Assembly (NCBI GenBank): GCA_021163105.1
Contig: JAGGXJ010000061.1
Location: forward strand, 1-32,950
DNA: 32,950 bases
Direction of reading: 5' to 3'
Source: Syntrophobacterales bacterium
GTDB lineage: Bacteria; Desulfobacterota; Syntrophia; Syntrophales; UBA2210
The first letter of the stretch is position 1; the number at the start of each line of letters is the position of its first letter. Below are positions 4,235 through 15,853 of this stretch, piece by piece. The position numbers and the translations under genes are program-made. The notes below the pieces were generated by a model that saw only the letters and a list, made by a program, of their open reading frames with translations, was not told the origin of the DNA and ran no database searches.

Positions 4235-5551
4235 GTGGAAGATATATTTGTAGGTTTGATCGGTTTCGGAACTATCGGCACAGGTGTTATCAAGCTGCTG
4301 CGGGAAAACGAGGAATTGATCCGGAAACGTCTGGGCGCGAGATTTGTTATCAAAAAAATAGCGGATGTCGATATTGAAACCACGAGACCGGTAACGGTTG
4401 AAAGAGAGATACTCACAACGGACGTGAATGATATCCTGACAGACCCGGAGATCTCCATCGTTGTGGAACTGGTGGGAGGTTACACCCACGCTAAAACGTT
4501 CGTACTGGAAGCGATACATGGCGGGAAACATGTGGTTACCGCGAACAAAGCACTCATTGCCACTTATGGGAACGAGATATTCGATGCCGCCGATGACGAA
4601 AAGGTTAATATTGGCTTTGAGGCAAGCGTAGGGGGAACGATTCCTATCATAAAGACATTGAAGGAAAGCCTTGCGGGTAATAATATTGAGTCTGTCTTCG
4701 GCATCATGAATGGGACATGCAATTACATACTAACGAGAATGACTAAAGACGGCAAGGACTTCGCCTCGGCGCTGAAAGACGCGCAGGATCTCGGATTTGC
4801 CGAGGCAGATCCAACATTCGACATTGAAGCTGTAGATACCGCGCATAAGCTGGCGATAATCCTGTCCCTGTCTTACGGCAAACGCGTGGTGTTGGATGAT
4901 ATCTACAGAGAGGGAATATCAGAGATAAGCTGGCAGGACATAGAATTCGCAGGGGAACTTGGGTACACCATCAAACTTCTCGCCATCGCGATCAGGAGGG
5001 GAGATACCATAGAGGCGCGGATACATCCGACCATGATACCCTTTGACCACATACTGGCCAGTGTTAACGGAAATTTCAATGCATTTCATCTGATAGGCGA
5101 TGCCTCTGATTCTGTATTCCTGTATGGCCAGGGAGCCGGTATGATGCCGACAGCGAGCGCGGTAGTGGGGGACATGATAGATATCTCGAGGGATATTATG
5201 GCGGGAATATGGAGAAGGGTTCCGCTTCGTTCCTATAAAAAAGATCGGATCGAAGACATAAACCTGCTCGAGATGGATGATGTCTCAACAAACTATTATT
5301 TCCGATTTTCAGCAGTTGACCGCCCGGGGGTACTCTCCGCGATATCGGGGATTCTGGGATCCTACAACATAGGCATATCCTCCGTTATCCAGAAGGAAAT
5401 AAAACTTGACAGGGACGCGGTGCCGCTTGTCATCACAACGTATAAGGCAAGGGAAAAAGATGTTCAAATGGCGCTGGAAGAAATAGACAAGCTTGATATT
5501 GTATTCGGAAAAACAACATTAATCAGGATCGAGGATGACGCGCTGAGATGA
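4235..5551 (+). CDS. hom: Homoserine dehydrogenase with C-terminal ACT domain
   Basis: Catalyses NAD(P)H-dependent reduction of aspartate semialdehyde to homoserine, the branch point to threonine and methionine. The protein has about 438 residues. The Rossmann motif GFGTIGTG is at 10-17, the substrate-domain signature NGTCNYIL is near 158, and AEADPTFDIEAVDTAHK carries the conserved catalytic-region acids and Lys (about 204). An ACT regulatory domain (about 355-430, DRPGVLSAISGILGSYNIGI) suggests feedback inhibition by threonine, as in other monofunctional Hom enzymes. I start at GTG 4235, preceded by GGAGG (4226-4230); a TTG at 4220 would add five residues but has no ribosome site. The stop overlaps the next start (ATGA), implying translational coupling. 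Confidence 0.96.
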   Translation: MEDIFVGLIGFGTIGTGVIKLLRENEELIRKRLGARFVIKKIADVDIETTRPVTVEREILTTDVNDILTDPEISIVVELVGGYTHAKTFVLEAIHGGKHVVTANKALIATYGNEIFDAADDEKVNIGFEASVGGTIPIIKTLKESLAGNNIESVFGIMNGTCNYILTRMTKDGKDFASALKDAQDLGFAEADPTFDIEAVDTAHKLAIILSLSYGKRVVLDDIYREGISEISWQDIEFAGELGYTIKLLAIAIRRGDTIEARIHPTMIPFDHILASVNGNFNAFHLIGDASDSVFLYGQGAGMMPTASAVVGDMIDISRDIMAGIWRRVPLRSYKKDRIEDINLLEMDDVSTNYYFRFSAVDRPGVLSAISGILGSYNIGISSVIQKEIKLDRDAVPLVITTYKAREKDVQMALEEIDKLDIVFGKTTLIRIEDDALR

Positions 5552-6783: not shown

Positions 6784-7180
6784 AATAAGAGTGATATATG
6801 CCGATACAGACGCGATGGGCATAGTTTATCACGCCAACTACATGAAGTGGTTCGAGATAGGCCGTGTGGAACTCATGCGCGAGCTCGGCGTTGTTTATTC
6901 GGAGCTTGAAGCAAAGGGATATAATCTACCGGTGATAGAAATGGGCTGCCACTATTTTTCGCCTGCAAGATACGATGAGATAGTAGTAATCGAGACAGAA
7001 ATAACCACTATCAGGCGGGCCAGTGTAAGGTTTGATTATGTCATACACGATGAAAAAAAAGAGAGGGTTCTTGCCGAAGGATTTACGCTTCATCCCTTTA
7101 CAAACAATGAGGGAAAGATAGTAAGAGCGCCGCGTTATGTAACGAATAAGGTAAACGAAAGAATAAAAGGAGATCTTTAA
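6761..7180 (+). CDS. YbgC/FadM-type acyl-CoA thioesterase (4HBT hot-dog fold)
   Basis: The 139-residue single-domain protein contains DTDAMGIVYHANYMKW; Asp17 in this motif aligns with the catalytic Asp of 4-hydroxybenzoyl-CoA thioesterase-type enzymes. It probably hydrolyses an acyl-CoA, but chain length cannot be told. The start is TTG 6761, preceded by GGAGA (6749-6753) seven bases upstream, so the gene overlaps the end of the preceding one by 23 bases. A GTG at 6791 is possible but would remove the first beta strand. The stop overlaps the ATG of the next gene by one base. YbgC is often linked to Tol-Pal genes; here it neighbours a TPR protein instead. Confidence 0.9.
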   Translation: MKKKGEFRIRVIYADTDAMGIVYHANYMKWFEIGRVELMRELGVVYSELEAKGYNLPVIEMGCHYFSPARYDEIVVIETEITTIRRASVRFDYVIHDEKKERVLAEGFTLHPFTNNEGKIVRAPRYVTNKVNERIKGDL

Positions 7181-7869
7181 TGGTGGATAATTTAACGAAG
7201 AAAGAACTGAAACAACCGGATGAGTTCCATACTATTGGATGGAAGGCCATGCAATACATATCCGAGCACAGGAGCAAATTTTACACAGCCGGGGCGGTGG
7301 CGCTTACTATCATTATTTTGTTAGGGGGATGGTATTTTTATCATTTGAACTATGAGGACAGGGCCGAACAGATGTATTCATCGGCGTATAACTCATATTC
7401 TCTGCCCGGCAACTCCGGTGATATGAAGAACGCGTATCTGAACGCCGTGGAGATATACACGGATCTGGTAAAAAAATATCCTGACAGCCGCGCGGCCACG
7501 CTTTCTTTCTATAATATGGGAAACATTTATTTTAACATCGGCGAAACAGAAAAATCCATTGAGGCCTATAAAACATTCCTGAAAGAATCCGGGAAAAACA
7601 ATATCCTTACCGCTCTTGCCTACTATGGGCTGGGTTACTGCTACGAAAAGAATAAGGATTATGATAATGCATTGAAATCATTTGAAAACTCCGACAAAAG
7701 CATAAAAGGAACGCGATTCGAATCTATAAATTACGCCAATATGGCAAGGATATATGAAAAGATGAGCAAACCGAAAGAGGCTTTGGATTTTTACCGTAAG
7801 GCTGAGGAAAAGGCGAGTGACCCGCTCATGAAGATGCTGGTGAAAAGCAGAATATCTGCTCTTAGTTAA
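7180..7869 (+). CDS. Membrane-anchored tetratricopeptide-repeat protein
   Basis: 229 residues: a charged cytoplasmic N-terminus of about 33 residues, one transmembrane helix (about 35-55, AVALTIIILLGGWYFY), then TPR-type helical repeats to the end (motifs such as YNMGNIYFNIGETEKSIEAY and YYGLGYCYEKNKDYDNALK). The arrangement recalls YfgM/DUF2133-like inner-membrane proteins with a periplasmic TPR domain, which act as chaperone or scaffold partners. No closer identity is claimed. The start overlaps the thioesterase stop, so translation is probably coupled; iorA follows after 21 bases. Confidence 0.8.
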   Translation: MVDNLTKKELKQPDEFHTIGWKAMQYISEHRSKFYTAGAVALTIIILLGGWYFYHLNYEDRAEQMYSSAYNSYSLPGNSGDMKNAYLNAVEIYTDLVKKYPDSRAATLSFYNMGNIYFNIGETEKSIEAYKTFLKESGKNNILTALAYYGLGYCYEKNKDYDNALKSFENSDKSIKGTRFESINYANMARIYEKMSKPKEALDFYRKAEEKASDPLMKMLVKSRISALS

Positions 7870-7890: not shown

Positions 7891-9687
7891 ATGAAACAAT
7901 TGATGTCAGGAAATGAGGCGATAGCGAGGGGGGCATATGAGCATGGTATTACCTTTGCTTCCGCCTATCCGGGAACCCCGAGCACCGAAATACTGGAGGA
8001 GTTTTCCAGGTATGACGGTGTTTACGCCGAGTGGACTCCGAATGAGAAGGTGGCCCTTGAGGTTGGGATAGGGGCGGCGCTGGGTGGAGCACGGGCTCTT
8101 GTTGTAATGAAACAGGTGGGGGTTAATGTTGCCGCCGATCCTCTCTTTACCTTGAGCTACACCGGCACGGAGGGGGGACTGGTTATTGTCAGCGCGGACG
8201 ATCCCTCCCTGCACAGTTCTCAGAATGAACAGGACAGCAGAAACTATGCAAAAGCCGCTAAGATTCCGATGCTGGAACCCGCGGACAGTGCTGAAGCAAA
8301 GGAATTCATAAAGATCGCCTTCAGGATGAGTGAAGAATTTGATACGCCCGTCTTTCTCAGAAGTACCACAAGGATTTCACATTCCAAATCTATTGTTACA
8401 CTGGAAGACCGGGAAATCCATGAAGAAAACAGGGGTGTCCGGTATAATCCGTCAAAGTATGTGATGGTTCCCGCCATGGCAAGACAACGAAGGATAGTCG
8501 TAGAAAAGAAAATGGAAAGGCTTTCGAAGTTCGCGGAGACCTTTCCCGAAAACAGAATGGAGATAAATGATACAAAGATAGGAATCATAACAGCGGGGAT
8601 GCCTTACAACTACACTAAAGACGTGTTTCCCGGGTATTCCTATCTTAAGCTTGGCATGGTTCATCCTCTTCCTCACGATCTGATCAGGGAATTTGCCTCA
8701 AAAGTGGAGAGGTTATACGTTGTTGAAGAACTTGACCCATTTATCGAAGAACAGATAAAAGCAATGGGTATCGATGTCATCGGCAGAGAAGTCTTTCCCT
8801 ATACAGGGGAATTTGATCCCGGTGTAGTGGAAACAGCCATTACGGGCAACGAAGCGGCAGTTGTCAACCTTCCGGATCTATCGCTGCCGCAGAGGCCCCC
8901 GAATCTCTGTCCCGGTTGCCCGCACAGGGGACTATTCTATGTCCTGGGAAAATTAAAGGTATTTGTGGCAGGTGATATAGGGTGCTATACTCTCGCCTTC
9001 ATGAAACCCCTTGAAGGCATGCACTCTACAATCTGCATGGGGGCCAGCGTGGGAATGGCTCATGGAATGGACAAGGTCATTGGAGGAAAGGAAAAGGTGG
9101 TGGGAGTAATTGGTGATTCCACCTTTATCCACTCCGGCATCACACCTCTGCTGAACATGGCCTATAACAAGAGTAATTCGGTTATTATCATATGCGACAA
9201 CAGGACAACCGCCATGACCGGGATGCAGGAAAATCCCGCAACCGGTTTTACCCTCCATGGCAAAGAAACCAAAGCGCTCGATTTTGTCAAATTAGCAGAG
9301 GCACTTGGCATGGATAACGTCAGGGTGGTTGACCCATTTGATATGAAGAACACGAGAAGCGTAATAAAGGAGGAGCTGTCAACGGAAGGACCTTCGCTGG
9401 TTATATCAAGTGCGCCGTGCGCCCTGCTTGCAGTGAAACAAAAACTACCGGGCAAAACACCCTTAAGGGTTAATCCGGATAAGTGTACCGGCTGCAAGGC
9501 GTGCCTTGGACTGGGATGTCCTCCGATCTCATGGAAAAGGTTTGAGGATATGGACATAAAAATAGAGAAGAAGACAAAGAAACAGGAAGGAATAGCCTTC
9601 ATAGATTCTTCTCTCTGTAATGGGTGCACCCTGTGTCAGCAGTTATGCAGCGCCGGAGCCATAGAGGAGGTCGTGGAAGATGAATGA
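7891..9687 (+). CDS. iorA: Indolepyruvate ferredoxin oxidoreductase, alpha subunit
   Basis: IorA with IorB oxidatively decarboxylates aryl-pyruvates (transamination products of Trp, Phe, Tyr) to aryl-acetyl-CoA using ferredoxin, or runs in reverse under reducing conditions. The 598-residue protein has the N-terminal pyrimidine domain (GNEAIARGAYEHGITF, YPGTPSTEI), a C-terminal TPP domain with NLCPGCPHRG and GDSTFIHSG (about 407), and a two-cluster ferredoxin tail: CTGCKACLGLGC (about 531) and CNGCTLCQQLC (about 575). Length is normal for the family. The ATG at 7891 has GAAAGGT upstream. The last eight bases overlap iorB, as expected for subunits made in fixed ratio. It marks an anaerobic metabolism. 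Confidence 0.96.
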   Translation: MKQLMSGNEAIARGAYEHGITFASAYPGTPSTEILEEFSRYDGVYAEWTPNEKVALEVGIGAALGGARALVVMKQVGVNVAADPLFTLSYTGTEGGLVIVSADDPSLHSSQNEQDSRNYAKAAKIPMLEPADSAEAKEFIKIAFRMSEEFDTPVFLRSTTRISHSKSIVTLEDREIHEENRGVRYNPSKYVMVPAMARQRRIVVEKKMERLSKFAETFPENRMEINDTKIGIITAGMPYNYTKDVFPGYSYLKLGMVHPLPHDLIREFASKVERLYVVEELDPFIEEQIKAMGIDVIGREVFPYTGEFDPGVVETAITGNEAAVVNLPDLSLPQRPPNLCPGCPHRGLFYVLGKLKVFVAGDIGCYTLAFMKPLEGMHSTICMGASVGMAHGMDKVIGGKEKVVGVIGDSTFIHSGITPLLNMAYNKSNSVIIICDNRTTAMTGMQENPATGFTLHGKETKALDFVKLAEALGMDNVRVVDPFDMKNTRSVIKEELSTEGPSLVISSAPCALLAVKQKLPGKTPLRVNPDKCTGCKACLGLGCPPISWKRFEDMDIKIEKKTKKQEGIAFIDSSLCNGCTLCQQLCSAGAIEEVVEDE

Positions 9688-10258
9688 ATCTGTGAGGAGC
9701 GTATTGCTGGTTGGCGTTGGCGGACAGGGAACAATAATGGCGAGCGACATACTTTCCGCCGTCATGATTAACGCGGGTTTTGATGTAAAAAAAAGTGAAG
9801 TGCATGGGATGGCCCAGAGGGGGGGGAGCGTAAGCAGTCATGTAAGATTCGGCCCTAAGGTCTATTCCCCTCTTGCAGGGAAGGGAGACGTCAGTATCCT
9901 GGTTTCTTTTGAGAAGTTGGAGACCCTGAGATATCTTGAATACCTGAAACCCGATGGTAAAGTAATCATAAATAATGAAGAGATATATCCTCCATCGGTA
10001 AATCTCGGAGAAGCGCTATATCCCGGTGATGCAATAGATTTCATAAAGAATCACTTTAAAGATGTAAAGGTTGTGGATGCAACTGCTATGGCCCTCCGGT
10101 CGGGAGACAAAAGGATGGCCAACACCGTTATCCTGGGGGTGTTGTCTTCCTGTCTGGATATAGAAGTAGACATATGGGAAGATGTTCTGAAAGAGAGCTT
10201 CCCCTCGAAAATACTGGAGGGAAATATAAACGCTTTCAGTCTGGGGAGGGGAGTATAG
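9680..10258 (+). CDS. iorB: Indolepyruvate ferredoxin oxidoreductase, beta subunit
   Basis: The 192-residue protein belongs to the pyruvate/ketoisovalerate oxidoreductase gamma-type family. VGVGGQGTIMASDIL opens the domain and SEVHGMAQRGGSVSSHVR is the conserved loop contacting the partner and cofactor. It forms the heterodimeric IOR enzyme with IorA. Its ATG lies within the end of iorA (ATGAATGA), with GGAGGTCGTGG upstream inside the iorA reading frame. The next gene starts six bases after its stop. Confidence 0.95.
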   Translation: MNESVRSVLLVGVGGQGTIMASDILSAVMINAGFDVKKSEVHGMAQRGGSVSSHVRFGPKVYSPLAGKGDVSILVSFEKLETLRYLEYLKPDGKVIINNEEIYPPSVNLGEALYPGDAIDFIKNHFKDVKVVDATAMALRSGDKRMANTVILGVLSSCLDIEVDIWEDVLKESFPSKILEGNINAFSLGRGV

Positions 10259-10264
10259 GCGAAG

Positions 10265-11191
10265 ATGCGAAAGATTGCCGGAGGATTGTTCCTTTTCTTT
10301 TTCGCGTTCGTTCTATTGTTTCCCTGCTATGTCCGGGGAGATAACCTGCGCGACTGTGAAAAGCAGCTCGAATTTGCGGAGAGCCTTTTTGAACAGGCTG
10401 ATTTCTACAGGGCGATAGGCGAATATAAGCGATTGATATTTCTATGCCCAGATGCGACGACGTTGTGTGAGAAGGCATATTTCAAGACAGGAGTCAGTTA
10501 TTTCAGAGCAAAGAAGTGGCAGAGCGCGATAGAAGCGTTTGACACGTTTCTCGTCAATTTCCCTGGCAGCCGGATGGCCGGAGAGGCAATGTATCTCAAG
10601 GGCATGAGTGAAAAGAATCTCTCATTGCACGATGAAGCACTTGTCACCTTCGGACATATCATAGAAACTGAAACTGGTGAGTACAAGGCGAGAGCAATCT
10701 ATCAGAGCGCCCTCGTTCTCGTGGATATGGAGAGATGGGAAAGGGCAGGGGAGATGTTTTCGCGTATCCCGAACGAAAGCAGGCTCTACGACTCCGCGGG
10801 CGTTTTCTCGGCAGGCCTTGAGAATATCGGCAATATTCCCCATAAATCCCCCGCTGTTGCCGGAACACTGGCCGCGATTGTTCCCGGCGCCGGTCACCTG
10901 TACACACAGAGACGAAGAGATGCCCTTGTCGCTTTTCTCCTGAACGGCGCCTTTATCTGGAGCGCAATCGAACTGTTTGACGATGAAAAGTATGTCACCG
11001 GCGGCATTGTCACCTTTTTTGAGCTGGGATGGTACACCGGTAATATATACAGCGCCGTCAGCAGCGCTCACAAATTTAACAAAAGAACCAAAAAAGACTT
11101 TCTACAGGGACTCAGGGACAGGACCAACCTTTCATATCTGCATGACCATGACAACGCATGCGATTATCTTATACTGAGCTTGAAGTTCTAA
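10265..11191 (+). CDS. Exported TPR protein with C-terminal hydrophobic domain
   Basis: 308 residues, function unknown. The N-terminal signal peptide is clear (GGLFLFFFAFVLLFPCYVRG, cleavage near 25). Residues about 30-170 form TPR-like repeats (FYRAIGEYKRLIFLCP, WQSAIEAFDTFLVNFPGSRM, ERAGEMFSRIP) similar to Bam/YbgF-type TPR proteins. The last third (about 195-275) has Gly-rich hydrophobic stretches, GTLAAIVPGAGHLYTQRRRDA then FLLNGAFIWSAIELF, that look like short membrane or membrane-surface helices. It sits seven bases before a YidD-domain gene that also has an export signal, which suggests the two act together at the envelope. Three Cys occur in the mature N-terminal part. It could be part of an envelope assembly complex; nothing firmer can be said. 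Confidence 0.75.
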   Translation: MRKIAGGLFLFFFAFVLLFPCYVRGDNLRDCEKQLEFAESLFEQADFYRAIGEYKRLIFLCPDATTLCEKAYFKTGVSYFRAKKWQSAIEAFDTFLVNFPGSRMAGEAMYLKGMSEKNLSLHDEALVTFGHIIETETGEYKARAIYQSALVLVDMERWERAGEMFSRIPNESRLYDSAGVFSAGLENIGNIPHKSPAVAGTLAAIVPGAGHLYTQRRRDALVAFLLNGAFIWSAIELFDDEKYVTGGIVTFFELGWYTGNIYSAVSSAHKFNKRTKKDFLQGLRDRTNLSYLHDHDNACDYLILSLKF

Positions 11192-11198
11192 TTATAAC

Positions 11199-11663
11199 AT
11201 GTTAAAATACAAACTAAATCTCGCCATGGTTCTTGTGTGGCTCATTATGGGAACATCCGTTGGATTCGGAGCCGACGATTCCTTCACGCCGTGGGGATTC
11301 GATAGCCGGCCTGTATCGACAACTCCTTCACACGCCATGGCGGATTCGAGTGCGTGTCAAAAAGATATTTCCCCGTCATCCCGTGTAGTTATGGGTGCTC
11401 TTAATTTCTTCTCAGAATATATATCAAGGGTGGATGGTGACAGGTGCCCCATGTATCCCACATGTGCTTCATACAGCCGTAAGGTGATAAAAAAGCACGG
11501 ATTTTTTGTGGGCATAGTCATGACGGCGGACAGGCTTATCCACGAAGGCAATGAAATGGATTATGCCCCTCTTGTAAAAACAGGAAAGAGTGTAAGGTAT
11601 TATGACCCGGTAAGCTGGAATGATTACTGGTGGTATGACAGAAAAGAAAATCTTGACAAATAA
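11199..11663 (+). CDS. YidD-domain protein with N-terminal export signal
   Basis: The 154-residue protein ends in a recognisable YidD domain (about 64-140): GDRCPMYPTCASYSRKVIKKHG is the family's Cys-containing signature, followed by the usual R-x4-GNE/P region. Classical YidD has 70-90 residues, sits on the cytoplasmic face of the inner membrane beside YidC and assists membrane-protein insertion. This one has about 60 extra N-terminal residues beginning with a hydrophobic signal (LNLAMVLVWLIMGTSVGFGA, likely cleavage after FGA), so the domain would be on the periplasmic side or anchored there. It is also not beside yidC, rpmH or rnpA. A separate function in the envelope with the TPR protein just upstream is therefore likely (inference). 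No strong ribosome site is visible, so coupling to the upstream gene is probable. Confidence 0.82.
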   Translation: MLKYKLNLAMVLVWLIMGTSVGFGADDSFTPWGFDSRPVSTTPSHAMADSSACQKDISPSSRVVMGALNFFSEYISRVDGDRCPMYPTCASYSRKVIKKHGFFVGIVMTADRLIHEGNEMDYAPLVKTGKSVRYYDPVSWNDYWWYDRKENLDK

Positions 11664-11689: not shown

Positions 11690-12601
11690 ATGGCGGAAGA
11701 TTATTACAAAACACTTGGAATAAATAAGAACGCATCCGGCGATGTTATAAAAAAGGCCTACAGGAAACTTGCGCTCAAATATCACCCCGACAAAAATCCA
11801 GGGAATAAAGGGGCCGAGAAAAATTTCAAGAAGATAAGCGAGGCATACGCCGTCCTTAGTAACCCTGAGAAGCGCAAACAATACGACAGTTTTGGATCAC
11901 AAGAGGCATTCAGCCGCAGTTTTTCCCAAGAAGACATATTCAGAGGGTTCGACCTGAACGAGATACTGAAAGGGCTTGGCGGTTTCAGGGGACAAAGACG
12001 ATCATCACACATGAACGAGGACATCTTCTCCCAACTTTTTGGAAATCAGCAACAGTATAACCGGCAAGTTCCCAGGAAAGGGAGAGATCTCGAATACAAT
12101 CTTTCCATAAGCCTCGAGGAGACATATTCCGGCGCGGAAAAAAGGATATCTTTTCAAACAGAGGATGGTGGATTGAATGAAATAACCATGAAAATCCCCA
12201 AGGGCATTGATACCGGCAAAAAGCTCAGACTTGCCGGAAAAGGCCTCCCTGGTCTTAACGGCGGCCCGGCCGGAGATCTGTTTATAAACATCACTGTTAC
12301 CCCTCATCCTGTTTTCACAAGGGACGGGGATGACATATATATCCAGAAAGTGATTACCTTTTCTCAGGCAGTATTGGGAACTACCATAGATGTCAAAACG
12401 CTTGAAGGAGAAACAAAAAGAATCAAAGTACCGGCAAATACCCAGAATAACACCAGAATAAGAATGAAAGGGTTTGGTGTCCCGCATTTCAAAAAGACTG
12501 GAAAGGGAAGCCAGTACGTCAGAATTACTGTTGATATTCCCAAAAAACTCACAAAGAAACAGCGTGAGATCGTCAAACAACTTTCTGAAGAAGGTCTCTA
12601 A
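11690..12601 (+). CDS. DnaJ-type co-chaperone (type B, CbpA-like)
   Basis: 303 residues. The J domain is at 4-70 with the HPD motif at 32-34 (YHPDKNP), which stimulates DnaK ATPase. A short linker containing [11 protein letters not shown] follows instead of a zinc-finger region, then two C-terminal beta domains (about 108-300) that bind substrate. There are no CxxCxGxG repeats, so this is a type II/CbpA protein, not DnaJ itself. It is the last gene of the plus-strand block. Its link with the exported TPR/YidD pair is by position only. Confidence 0.92.
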
Positions 12602-12652: not shown

Positions 12653-12928
12653 TCCCGACAACCAGTACGTATAGCTTTATTCTTTTGATTCAGTCTCCGA
12701 TTAACGCATTTCCTCCTTGATTGATGGGTGGTGGGGGGGGGTACAAATGGGATACAAATCAGAATTGGAGAATACCGATTTTTCCTTAATTGTAAACGTC
12801 TGATAAGATATGTTATGTAAACTTTACCTGAGATTCGCTTCTGGCACACAGGTTTCAAATATGATAATGTAAAAGCACTTAATATCGGTGCATTCGTAAA
12901 AAGTGGGATTTGGTGCCCTCTCTTTCAA

Positions 12929-12958
12929 CGGTTTATCCCGACTTGTCGGGATAAACCG
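12929..12958. repeat. 30-base near-perfect palindrome upstream of mlaE
   Basis: A 14-base arm (12929-12942) is the exact reverse complement of 12945-12958, with TT in the centre. The core is ATCCCGA-CTTG-TCGGGAT. It ends 28 bases before the mlaE ATG, so in RNA it would form a very stable hairpin in the leader. The same heptamer arms occur in other intergenic repeats of this window. Confidence 0.85.
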
Positions 12959-12986
12959 TAAACTGTTACCATCGGGTGGGTTTTCT

Positions 12987-14123
12987 ATGAAGCATCCGGA
13001 TCAGAACTATACGATACGGGTTGAAGGTGAAAAAAGGCAAAGCGTCACATTGCATCTGTCCGGTGATCTTGTAACAGAAAATATAGATCGCCCGATGGCC
13101 GAGATCAAATCCGTTCTTGATGATTACACCCCTTCACAACTTACGATTGATCTTTCGGGTATTGATACTCTGGACAGCGCGGGCGCCATGGCCCTCGCAA
13201 AAACGGAAGATGACGCGACCACGAGATCAATCCCCCTCAAAATTGTTAATATGACCCCGAGGATGAAAAATATGATGGGTCTTCTCAATCGTAAGGCGCT
13301 TGCGGAGAATTATCTGGATCATGAACCGAACCCCGGAACACTCGATAGGATGACAAATGTATTTCTGGATATCTATAACGATTTCAACAGGGTAATGATC
13401 TTTGTCGGAGAACTTCTGAGCGCGATGCTTTACTCCATTCTCCATCCCCTTTCCATAAGATGGGGCGATTCCCTTCTCTATATAAAGCGGGCCGGCGTCG
13501 ATGGACTTCCCATCCTGGGGCTTATAAGCTTTCTTATAGGCCTTATTATAGCCTTCATGTCCTCTCTGCAGTTGAAACAATTCGGCGCAAACATATATGT
13601 GGCCTCCTTCCTGGCCATCGCGGTGGTCAGAGAACTTGGCCCCATTATGACCGCGATACTCGTCGCCGGACGGTCCGGATCCGCTTTCGCGGCGGAGATA
13701 GGAACCATGAAGGTAAATGAGGAGATCGATGCCCTTGTCGTCATGGGATTTGATCCCGTAAGATTTATAGCCGTGCCGAAGGTTATTGCCGCTATGGTAG
13801 CGGTGCCGCTCCTTACATTATACGCCGATCTGTTCGGTGTTCTGGGAGGGCTTGTTGTAGGGGTAACCGGACTGGACCTGACACCGTATACCTACATACA
13901 GCAGACAATCAAAAGTATAGCCACTTTTGATATAATCTCCGGCATTGTAAAGGCGCTGGTGTTTGCGGTACTTATCAGCGGCATCAGTTGCCAGAGGGGA
14001 TTTGAAACAGGTGAAGGCGCGGAAGCTGTTGGAATATCAGCTACTTCTGCTGTAGTCTCGTCAATATTCCTGATCATAGTAGCGGATTCCATTTTTGCCA
14101 TTGTTATACATTACATCAGATGA
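12987..14123 (+). CDS. mlaE: MlaE-family lipid ABC transporter permease with N-terminal STAS domain
   Basis: The 378-residue protein has two parts. Residues about 1-105 form a STAS domain (LTIDLSGIDTLDSAGAMAL), the equivalent of separate MlaB in E. coli. Residues about 125-378 are an MlaE permease with five or so membrane helices and the family signature ELGPIMTAILVAGRSGSAFA. MlaFEDB moves phospholipid across the periplasm to keep outer-membrane asymmetry; fused STAS-MlaE proteins are common outside the enterics. I start at ATG 12987 because upstream in-frame codons back to GTG 12903 would translate the palindrome; GGGTGGG at 12974-12980 is a weak ribosome site. mlaF and mlaD follow. Confidence 0.93.
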   Translation: MKHPDQNYTIRVEGEKRQSVTLHLSGDLVTENIDRPMAEIKSVLDDYTPSQLTIDLSGIDTLDSAGAMALAKTEDDATTRSIPLKIVNMTPRMKNMMGLLNRKALAENYLDHEPNPGTLDRMTNVFLDIYNDFNRVMIFVGELLSAMLYSILHPLSIRWGDSLLYIKRAGVDGLPILGLISFLIGLIIAFMSSLQLKQFGANIYVASFLAIAVVRELGPIMTAILVAGRSGSAFAAEIGTMKVNEEIDALVVMGFDPVRFIAVPKVIAAMVAVPLLTLYADLFGVLGGLVVGVTGLDLTPYTYIQQTIKSIATFDIISGIVKALVFAVLISGISCQRGFETGEGAEAVGISATSAVVSSIFLIIVADSIFAIVIHYIR

Positions 14124-14136
14124 GGATAAACCCGGA

Positions 14137-14919
14137 ATGACACCTGTTGTCACTGTAAAAAATCTTACGGCACGTTACGGCGAAAATATCGTTTTTGAAG
14201 GCGTAAGTTTTGATATCTTCAAAGGGGAAATCTTTGCCATAGTGGGAGGAAACGGGTGCGGAAAGACAACCATCTTCAAATGCATGACAGGCCTTTTGAA
14301 ACCATCAGGCGGCAAAATCCTGGTGAGTGGAATCGACCCGGCAACAGAAGATGAAGATAAGCTTAAAACCCTCAGAAAGGAAACCGGCGTACTCTTTCAG
14401 TCAAGCGCCCTCTTCGGTTCCATGACCCTGTACGATAATATGGCGCTTGTCCTCAAGGAATATACAACTCTCCCCTCCCCTGTTATTGATATGATAATCA
14501 AGACAAAACTCGGCATGGTGAGGCTTGCCGGCTGCGAAAATCTTCTGCCCTCCGAATTATCCGGTGGGATGAAAAAGCGTGCCGGTATCGCAAGGGCGAT
14601 GGTCATGGACCCCATGGTACTTTTTCTTGATGAGCCTTCGGCCGGTCTGGACCCCATCACATCCGAAGAGTTTGATATGCTGGTAAAAAATATAAACACC
14701 GGTATGGGAACAACCATGATAATCATAACTCATCAACTGGAATCCATTTTCAATATAGCGCACAGGGTGATTATGTTAGACAAGGACGCAAAGGGAATAA
14801 TCGCGGAGGGCGATCCCCGTGAATTGAGAAAAAATTCAAAAGATCCGAGAGTTACGGCATTTTTAGGAGGCGGGATTACCCGGCATTCTGCCGGACATGA
14901 ACAAGCTGAAGCCGATTGA
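14137..14919 (+). CDS. mlaF: MlaF-type ABC transporter ATP-binding protein
   Basis: The 260-residue ATPase powers the MlaE permease. Walker A GGNGCGKTT is at 37-45, the ABC signature is LSGGMKKRAGIARA, Walker B is MVLFLDEPSAGLDP, and the H-loop is IITHQLE. The Met/Lys-rich signature variant (LSGGMKKR) is typical of MlaF/TGD3-like ATPases. I use ATG 14137, with GAGGA (14122-14126) upstream, giving a 13-base gap from mlaE; a TTG at 14095 would overlap mlaE by 29 bases and adds a non-conserved leader. Confidence 0.94.
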   Translation: MTPVVTVKNLTARYGENIVFEGVSFDIFKGEIFAIVGGNGCGKTTIFKCMTGLLKPSGGKILVSGIDPATEDEDKLKTLRKETGVLFQSSALFGSMTLYDNMALVLKEYTTLPSPVIDMIIKTKLGMVRLAGCENLLPSELSGGMKKRAGIARAMVMDPMVLFLDEPSAGLDPITSEEFDMLVKNINTGMGTTMIIITHQLESIFNIAHRVIMLDKDAKGIIAEGDPRELRKNSKDPRVTAFLGGGITRHSAGHEQAEAD

Positions 14920-14929
14920 GAGGTGTAAT

Positions 14930-15853
14930 GTGCATAGAAAAACATCAAAACTTATGATAGGACTTTTTGTGACCGTCGGAATCCTGATAGGCGCCGGCGC
15001 CATTGTATGGGTGAGCGCGTCTAAATATTTCAGTGGAGGCGCTCACTACGTCTCCTACTTCAATGAATCCGTGCAAGGGCTTAAGATGAATTCCGCTGTC
15101 AGATACAGGGGTGTTGATGTCGGTATAGTAGAAGATATCAGGGTTGCCCCCGATAATAAACTCGTTGAAGTGGTGATGAAAATAGACCTTAAGGGAGACT
15201 TGGAGCAGGATGTCATAACCCAGCTGAAAGCCGTCGGCATAACCGGTCTGGTTATCGTAGAGATGGATCGCAGAAAACCCTCAGATTCTTTTATCGATAT
15301 AGATTTTCCCGCCGGATATCCTGTAATTCCCTCGCGTCCTTCCGAGATGAAGGCGCTTCTTACGGGAATTGATGGCATTATTGAAAAGATAAAACTGATT
15401 GATTTCGTGGCTATATCCGATCAGTTGAAATTTGTTATCGACGCAACCGGAAATCTTCTAGCTGACAAGAGAATAGACAGCATCATCACCACCCTTGAAT
15501 CCACGGCCGGCAATCTCGACACTATTTCGTCAAAATTTGAGGATCTGTGCGCGGAAGACGGAGCTTCAAATTTCCTGGAGGAAGCAAGGATGACATTTGT
15601 CGAGGCCAGACAGGTCATAGCCGAAATAAGGAGTGATATGGATTCTCTGAACCTTGCGGAAACTGCCGGAAAAACTGATAAGCTTATAGAAAATATGGGG
15701 AAACAATTCCGGTTAACGGCAATGGAGATCCAGGATACCAGCGAAAATCTCCGTCGCGTGTCAGAAACACTGGAGAAACTTATGGAGAGACTAAGCATGC
15801 GGCCATCAGACCTGATAAACAGTAAACCGCTGCCTCCGAAGAAGACAGAATGA
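14930..15853 (+). CDS. mlaD: MlaD-type MCE-domain substrate-binding protein
   Basis: The 307-residue protein has an N-terminal anchor helix (about 8-28, LMIGLFVTVGILIGAGAIVW), one MCE domain (about 33-115, SVQGLKMNSAVRYRGVDVGIVEDI), and a long helical C-terminal part (about 140-290). MCE proteins form hexameric rings or tubes in the periplasm through which lipids pass. E. coli MlaD has 183 residues; the long helical tail suggests a tunnel-like extension as in other MCE proteins (inference). I prefer GTG 14930, since GAGAGG (14918-14923) sits six bases before it; the ATG at 14897 overlaps mlaF by 23 bases and lacks a site. Confidence 0.9.
   Translation: MHRKTSKLMIGLFVTVGILIGAGAIVWVSASKYFSGGAHYVSYFNESVQGLKMNSAVRYRGVDVGIVEDIRVAPDNKLVEVVMKIDLKGDLEQDVITQLKAVGITGLVIVEMDRRKPSDSFIDIDFPAGYPVIPSRPSEMKALLTGIDGIIEKIKLIDFVAISDQLKFVIDATGNLLADKRIDSIITTLESTAGNLDTISSKFEDLCAEDGASNFLEEARMTFVEARQVIAEIRSDMDSLNLAETAGKTDKLIENMGKQFRLTAMEIQDTSENLRRVSETLEKLMERLSMRPSDLINSKPLPPKKTE

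Follow-up and report, generated by a model that had tools for sequence, protein, structure and literature searches.

YidD, present in most bacteria, is normally a small protein that aids inner-membrane assembly from the cytoplasmic side. The E. coli protein is cited as a membrane protein insertion efficiency factor (Yu et al. 2011, cited in PMC8082313). At SecYEG, PpiD and YfgM form a periplasmic chaperone pair (PMC8082313; structure 8zht). We found no description of an exported or periplasmic YidD in the open-access literature. Here, we describe a YidD relative with a putative gained export signal that travels with one membrane-anchored helper, a combination that suggests a hitherto undescribed machine of two proteins acting on the outer side of the inner membrane.

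The two genes are neighbors in a 32,950-nucleotide stretch of DNA from a Syntrophales genome, referred to here as the window. Between iorB (9680-10258) and a DnaJ-type gene (11690-12601), its forward strand carries the gene for a TPR protein (308 amino acids) and then the gene for a YidD-domain protein, with a spacer of 7 bases (11192-11198) between the two. A first-pass annotation of the window had described this gap behind an exported TPR protein whose C-terminal domain is hydrophobic, and a DnaJ-type gene directly after the YidD-domain gene; we found these open reading frames where it had placed them. The features of the pair are listed in Table 1.

Table 1. Features of the TPR protein gene and the exported yidD gene, numbered from the first nucleotide of the window.
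Feature	Position	Strand	Basis
Partner gene, encoding an exported TPR protein whose C-terminal membrane domain is conserved	10265..11191	+	Open reading frame; TPR_6
TPR protein N-terminus, signal-peptide-like, approximately residues 1-25	10265..10339	+	Charge and signal-peptide-like rule in relatives
TPR region, residues 28-186, predicted periplasmic	10346..10822	+	Pfam TPR matches; AlphaFold helices
TPR protein C-terminal domain, residues 194-308	10844..11188	+	A6 alignment; charge pattern; AlphaFold
Exported YidD paralogue, 154 amino acids	11199..11663	+	PF01809, TIGR00278
Exported YidD signal-peptide-like N-terminus, residues 1-25, predicted cut after FGA	11199..11273	+	Sequence; relatives; orientation
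Exported YidD linker, residues 26-61	11274..11381	+	A1/A3 alignments
YidD domain core with C83-x5-C89	11382..11540	+	HMM match
Exported YidD C-terminal extension, Y-D-P-V then N-D-[FY]-W-W-Y	11541..11660	+	Alignments A1/A4

The second protein of the pair matched PF01809 (YidD) over residues 62 to 114 with 43.9 bits (cut-off, 27) and TIGR00278 with 50.2 bits (cut-off, 40). Besides these matches above curated cut-offs, it shares with YidD the C-x5-C motif, the preceding helix, and the YDPV motif. It differs by having an export signal and a linker, twice the length, and an NDFWWY tail, and by the usual loss of the third cysteine. Its gene lies outside the rpmH-rnpA-yidC cluster, between the TPR gene and dnaJ, and is paired with the TPR/membrane protein while a classical copy coexists. 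We set this protein apart from ordinary YidDs because it lacks three defining features of that family for which it was tested. An ordinary YidD is short and cytoplasmic, has no export signal, and carries its domain at the N-terminus, whereas the motif cysteine of the window protein is residue 83; the median position is 78 in exported relatives versus 29 in classical YidDs. An ordinary YidD also has three conserved cysteines, whereas the window protein keeps C83 and C89 and has the third replaced.

The N-terminus of the 154-residue protein, MLKYKLNLAMVLVWLIMGTSVGFGA/DD, resembles a cleavable signal peptide. Between the predicted cut and the start of the YidD HMM match are ~36 residues, in line with the first-pass description of a YidD signature behind a signal peptide and about 35 further residues. 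We scored signal peptides with a simple home-made rule, different from SignalP, in 69 exported YidDs, 30 classical YidDs, and 56 relatives of the TPR protein. By this rule, 62 of the 69 exported forms and none of the 30 classical ones had a signal-peptide-like start whose end lay 30 or more residues ahead of the C-x5-C motif, which argues that the layout is not a chance effect of start codon choice. The N-terminal flank of the hydrophobic stretch was more positively charged than the C-terminal flank in 66 of 69 exported YidDs, predicting an N-in/C-out orientation. Together, the signal-like N-termini and the charge bias predict, as the first-pass annotation had, that the YidD domain lies on the far side of the membrane. 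A hydrophobic N-terminus could instead act as a membrane anchor with the YidD domain in the cytoplasm, making this an ordinary YidD with an additional anchor; three of the 69 members, which have no clear cleavage motif or hydrophobic stretch under our rule, would suit such an arrangement. However, the charge bias points the other way, the hydrophobic regions are short (median, 15) and mostly followed by small-x-small motifs, and a classical yidD is already in the genome. We consider the anchor reading very unlikely. With export as the preferred reading, current databases give the label "insertion efficiency factor" to a protein that probably has no contact with YidC at its cytoplasmic face.

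Conservation within the exported forms was uneven. C83, P87, C89, Y92, G101, G105, and R112 were invariant across all 69, and the YDPV motif was common to classical and exported proteins, whereas NDFWWY, which follows YDPV, was found in the exported form only. Of the 30 classical YidDs, 29 keep the third cysteine; most exported relatives have another residue there, as does the window protein (E116, beside H115). In the linker, an F-x-P-W-x-F motif was common among close relatives, and W32 was invariant in alignment A3. Several loci (L101, L102, L104, and L109 to L112) have L-L-R-[GA]-P or M-[KR]-G-P in place of the F-x-P-W of the mature N-terminus, and the same lineages have a diverged TPR partner. 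The AlphaFold model of the exported YidD was of moderate quality (pLDDT, 77), and we found no solved relative in the PDB by sequence or by fold.

These residue patterns bear on whether the exported protein still takes part in protein insertion. The fold may have been reused, as a disulfide-stabilized periplasmic scaffold or as a subunit with which the TPR protein binds lipid or peptidoglycan. The loss of the third cysteine from most exported forms beside two invariant ones fits such a reuse, as does a tail that the classical forms lack, and the periplasm offers no ribosome. Yet the core YidD positions, the helix before the cysteines, and YDPV have been kept, and some exported members retain the third cysteine. 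We regard reuse outside protein insertion as possible but doubtful.

We next turn to the distribution of the two forms. In a tree of the domain, a single branch (SH-aLRT, 96) separated every exported form from the classical ones; many other forks of this tree, built on a short domain, were unresolved. The genome that contains the window (2.01 Mb; 97.5% complete) holds one further YidD, a classical protein of 72 amino acids encoded directly beside rnpA/rpmH. A classical copy elsewhere in the genome, whose absence had been named beforehand as grounds for abandoning the first-pass reading, is therefore present, and this check does not refute that reading. Nearly every genome of the window's order has a classical yidD, and by our own reading of the search results, 46 of the 49 genomes that carry an exported YidD also gave a strong classical match (the exceptions are G051, G070, and G072), so that the predicted coexistence extends beyond this genome. 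Exported YidD was found in 49 of the order's 149 genomes. A scan of public genomes yielded 80 named exported-YidD loci in Desulfobacterota, Nitrospirota, Nitrospinota, and Pseudomonadota (Gammaproteobacteria and Magnetococcales); the closer alignment, A3, was used, the sequences in A1 (36 rows) being too divergent for such a scan, and this count under-represents very distant relatives. We concluded that the exported form is a family and not a local oddity.

In 64 of the 80 named loci, the TPR partner was the immediate same-strand neighbor of the exported YidD (median gap, -4 bases). It lay upstream of the exported YidD in 31 loci, mostly from Syntrophales, and downstream in 33, from Desulfobacterales, Nitrospirota, and Nitrospinota. 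That adjacency is kept in both gene orders speaks against the plain inheritance of a single operon. When searched with a profile built from only the C-terminal domain of the partner, 48 of the 149 genomes of the window's order contained the family. Of these 149, 46 had both families, 3 and 2 had a single one, and 98 had neither (Fisher test, 2.8e-32, uncorrected for shared ancestry). Repeated pairing with the same TPR family had been anticipated, and it was borne out both by adjacency and by the presence of both proteins in 46 of the 51 genomes with either. Gains and losses were also concordant in several families: the only genome of family f14 with either protein (G100) has both, and families f13, f5, f1, f17, and f18 are mixed, yet exported YidD and partner agree within them.

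Separation of the two genes did not usually mean loss of one. For exported YidDs standing alone, the partner was encoded elsewhere in 8 of 13 genomes (a strong match or nearly so), and one further genome of the 13 had a weak partner match at a contig end; in a fourteenth genome that was searched, that of L124, the locus is merely cut by a contig end. Family f16 has nothing in the slot between iorB-TPR and dnaJ, its exported YidD having moved to another place in the genome. At the other extreme, a single open reading frame (L113 in genome G046, 4644-5321, reverse strand) fuses a YidD domain, scoring 76 bits against TIGR00278 and with the third cysteine kept, to the partner's C-terminal membrane domain; it is a single case and lies at a contig end. 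A group of exported YidDs without an adjacent partner (L076, L083, L087 to L091, L093, L094, and L096) lies in unrelated neighborhoods, and the genomes of this group mostly keep the partner elsewhere.

Within Syntrophales, the pair sits in a conserved iorA-iorB-TPR-YidD-dnaJ run, and adjacency could then reflect functionally meaningless hitchhiking in an ior operon. In other families, however, the pair is found with neither ior nor dnaJ, and it occurs reversed, apart, and fused; loci outside the ior context already refute the hitchhiking reading, which we find scarcely credible. The first-pass annotation had counted DnaJ as part of the unit. This did not hold: a DnaJ gene was adjacent in only 22 of the 80 loci, and DnaJ and ior neighbors were confined mainly to one lineage, which has the iorAB context as well. 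DnaJ and the ior genes were rejected as members of the module because they are lineage specific. Judged from the sequences, the exported YidD paralogue and the TPR/membrane protein very probably form a conserved, mobile envelope module, whose two proteins probably interact and which coexists with classical YidD. An exported paralogue with an obligate-looking partner makes the role of the YidD fold approachable in another, independent system.

The partner has an N-terminal hydrophobic stretch, TPRs (PF13174 TPR_6, 45.9 bits), and a conserved hydrophobic C-terminal domain; this last third of the protein is better conserved than the repeats. By the home-made rule, 52 of 56 partner relatives had a signal-peptide-like start, and in 54 of 56 the N-terminal flank was the more positive one. 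In the AlphaFold model (mean pLDDT, 89.7), a TPR solenoid predicted with confidence is accompanied by two long helices and a C-terminal beta-hairpin; most of the helices in residues 28 to 186 score above 90. Attempts to give the partner a curated name were unsuccessful: the candidates were generic TPR families, below cut-off for the window protein, and no specific NCBIfam family was shown. In sequence and fold, its TPR region is similar to BamD and YbgF (CpoB), and its fold resembles the BamD, YbgF, and YfgM TPR folds in the PDB. The partner differs from BamD and YbgF in having the additional C-terminal membrane domain, and the window protein scored below the curated cut-offs for both families (44.9 versus 81.4 bits for BamD; 46.5 versus 90.1 bits for YbgF/CpoB).

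This C-terminal domain has a K-S-P..AG...PG.GH.Y motif (PGxGHxY), two or three membrane segments, and a positively charged tail. Its hydrophobic segments contain acidic residues, of which E253 is nearly invariant, and in alignment A6 the invariant positions of the domain are K5, P7, A10, P18, G19, G21, Y24, D30, N38, E64, G66, Y68, G70, and N83. A PGxGxxY-type hydrophobic motif is common to this domain and to DUF5683, DUF6677, and TM2, which matched weakly in 23, 20, and 7 of 26 members, respectively. The window partner stays below the gathering scores (18.5 versus 24.3 bits for DUF6677; 13.8 versus 26.7 bits for DUF5683), and the domain differs from all three by distinct conserved residues such as E253, Y257, and N272. 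The loop charges run positive, negative, positive. In a model of the topology, they more likely fit three crossings, with the TPR region periplasmic and the tail cytoplasmic, which requires a short, weakly hydrophobic first segment to span the membrane; less likely, they fit two crossings in the opposite arrangement, which is incompatible with the signal. The partner looks like an inner-membrane protein and not a lipoprotein. Its last residue is F in 51 of 56 relatives and Y in 4 of 56, and the C-terminal beta-hairpin ends in F. We rejected this residue as an outer-membrane beta-barrel signal because only one hairpin, and no barrel, is predicted after the membrane helices.

Some neighborhoods of the pair include envelope machines. 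Genuine type II secretion (T2SS) operons surround or flank 14 of the 80 loci, in several arrangements; none of the 14 is in the window's genus, and two of them (L167 and L185) have an exported YidD without a listed partner. In Magnetococcales (L192, 145-6797), the order is gspD-gspE-gspF-[TPR]-[exported YidD]-gspG, followed by an M1 peptidase gene. In Desulfobacterales, the pair follows gspC-D-E, and locus L189 reads gspN-C-D-E-[YidD-TPR]. GspC, D, E, F, G, and N at the loci checked pass curated cut-offs. We estimated from operon and genome size that such linkage should occur at ~0.6% per locus. The observed linkage is far above chance, even with shared ancestry leaving a handful of independent cases, and in these lineages it offers a concrete, testable phenotype. 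In about 11 further loci, mostly from Desulfobacterales, hflC/hflK are divergently adjacent to the exported yidD (e.g., L174, 3470-6243).

The pilotins of related machines include TPR proteins such as PilF. Since the pair can lie inside a T2SS operon, and since PilF is among the fold matches of the partner, the pair might be a dedicated T2SS accessory (for example, in secretin or pseudopilus assembly) that moved off the operon in Syntrophales. However, among the 149 genomes of the window's order, GspG was found in 27 of the 49 with exported YidD and in 64 of the 100 without (p = 0.37, no association), and the pair occurs without GspG in near-complete genomes, G012 among them. We therefore rejected dependence of the pair on T2SS in this order; T2SS is at most one client. 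The inner-membrane, non-lipoprotein appearance of the partner also speaks against a dedicated accessory, which we judge improbable. The two window proteins matched YidD or TPR families only and none of the Gsp families. The pair has T2SS genes as neighbors in some loci, is no known Gsp component, and shows no genome-level co-occurrence with the system in the window's order.

An assembly module would account for the pairing, co-occurrence, and fusion, the export signals, the separate tree branch, the envelope-machine neighbors (T2SS and HflK/HflC), and the BamD/YbgF/YfgM-like TPR fold. Sec would export the YidD paralogue, leaving its domain on the periplasmic side, where the usual YidD amphipathic helix and the TPR partner could hold it in place; the mature N-terminal motif is perhaps a docking peptide for the TPR groove. 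The partner would have its TPR region in the periplasm and its C-terminal domain embedded in the inner membrane. The pair would then act at the periplasmic face of that membrane on envelope proteins as they emerge from the Sec/YidC machinery and might, for some lineages, also serve type II secretion parts. We infer the periplasmic location, physical contact, and inner-membrane topology of the pair; its assembly function and clients are guesses from family relations and neighbors. From the fold, the family, and the neighbors, the pair could plausibly, if tentatively, be a periplasmic-face assembly or quality-control factor of the inner membrane, in the manner of PpiD-YfgM. The latter is a working analogy only: both pairs combine an inner-membrane-anchored TPR protein with a periplasmic partner, and the TPR folds are similar (TM-score, 0.74 by target length), whereas the window pair has no PpiD or parvulin domain and its TPR protein has a multi-pass C-terminal domain. 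We advance with considerable reserve the fuller proposal, that a duplicated YidD was exported and joined with a TPR/multi-pass partner in a membrane-protein assembly complex at the periplasmic face, distinct from the cytoplasmic-face YidC-YidD and serving envelope machines such as T2SS in several phyla.

Other envelope genes lie near the pair in the window. A TPR_21 protein (7180-7869; PF09976, above cut-off) has one N-terminal membrane segment in a YfgM-like layout and recurs upstream of iorA at 18 of the 80 exported-YidD loci; it is possibly a third envelope chaperone in the neighborhood. Just downstream (12903-15853) is a phospholipid transport cluster encoding an MlaE permease with an N-terminal STAS-like region, an MlaF-like ATPase, and an MlaD-like MCE protein.
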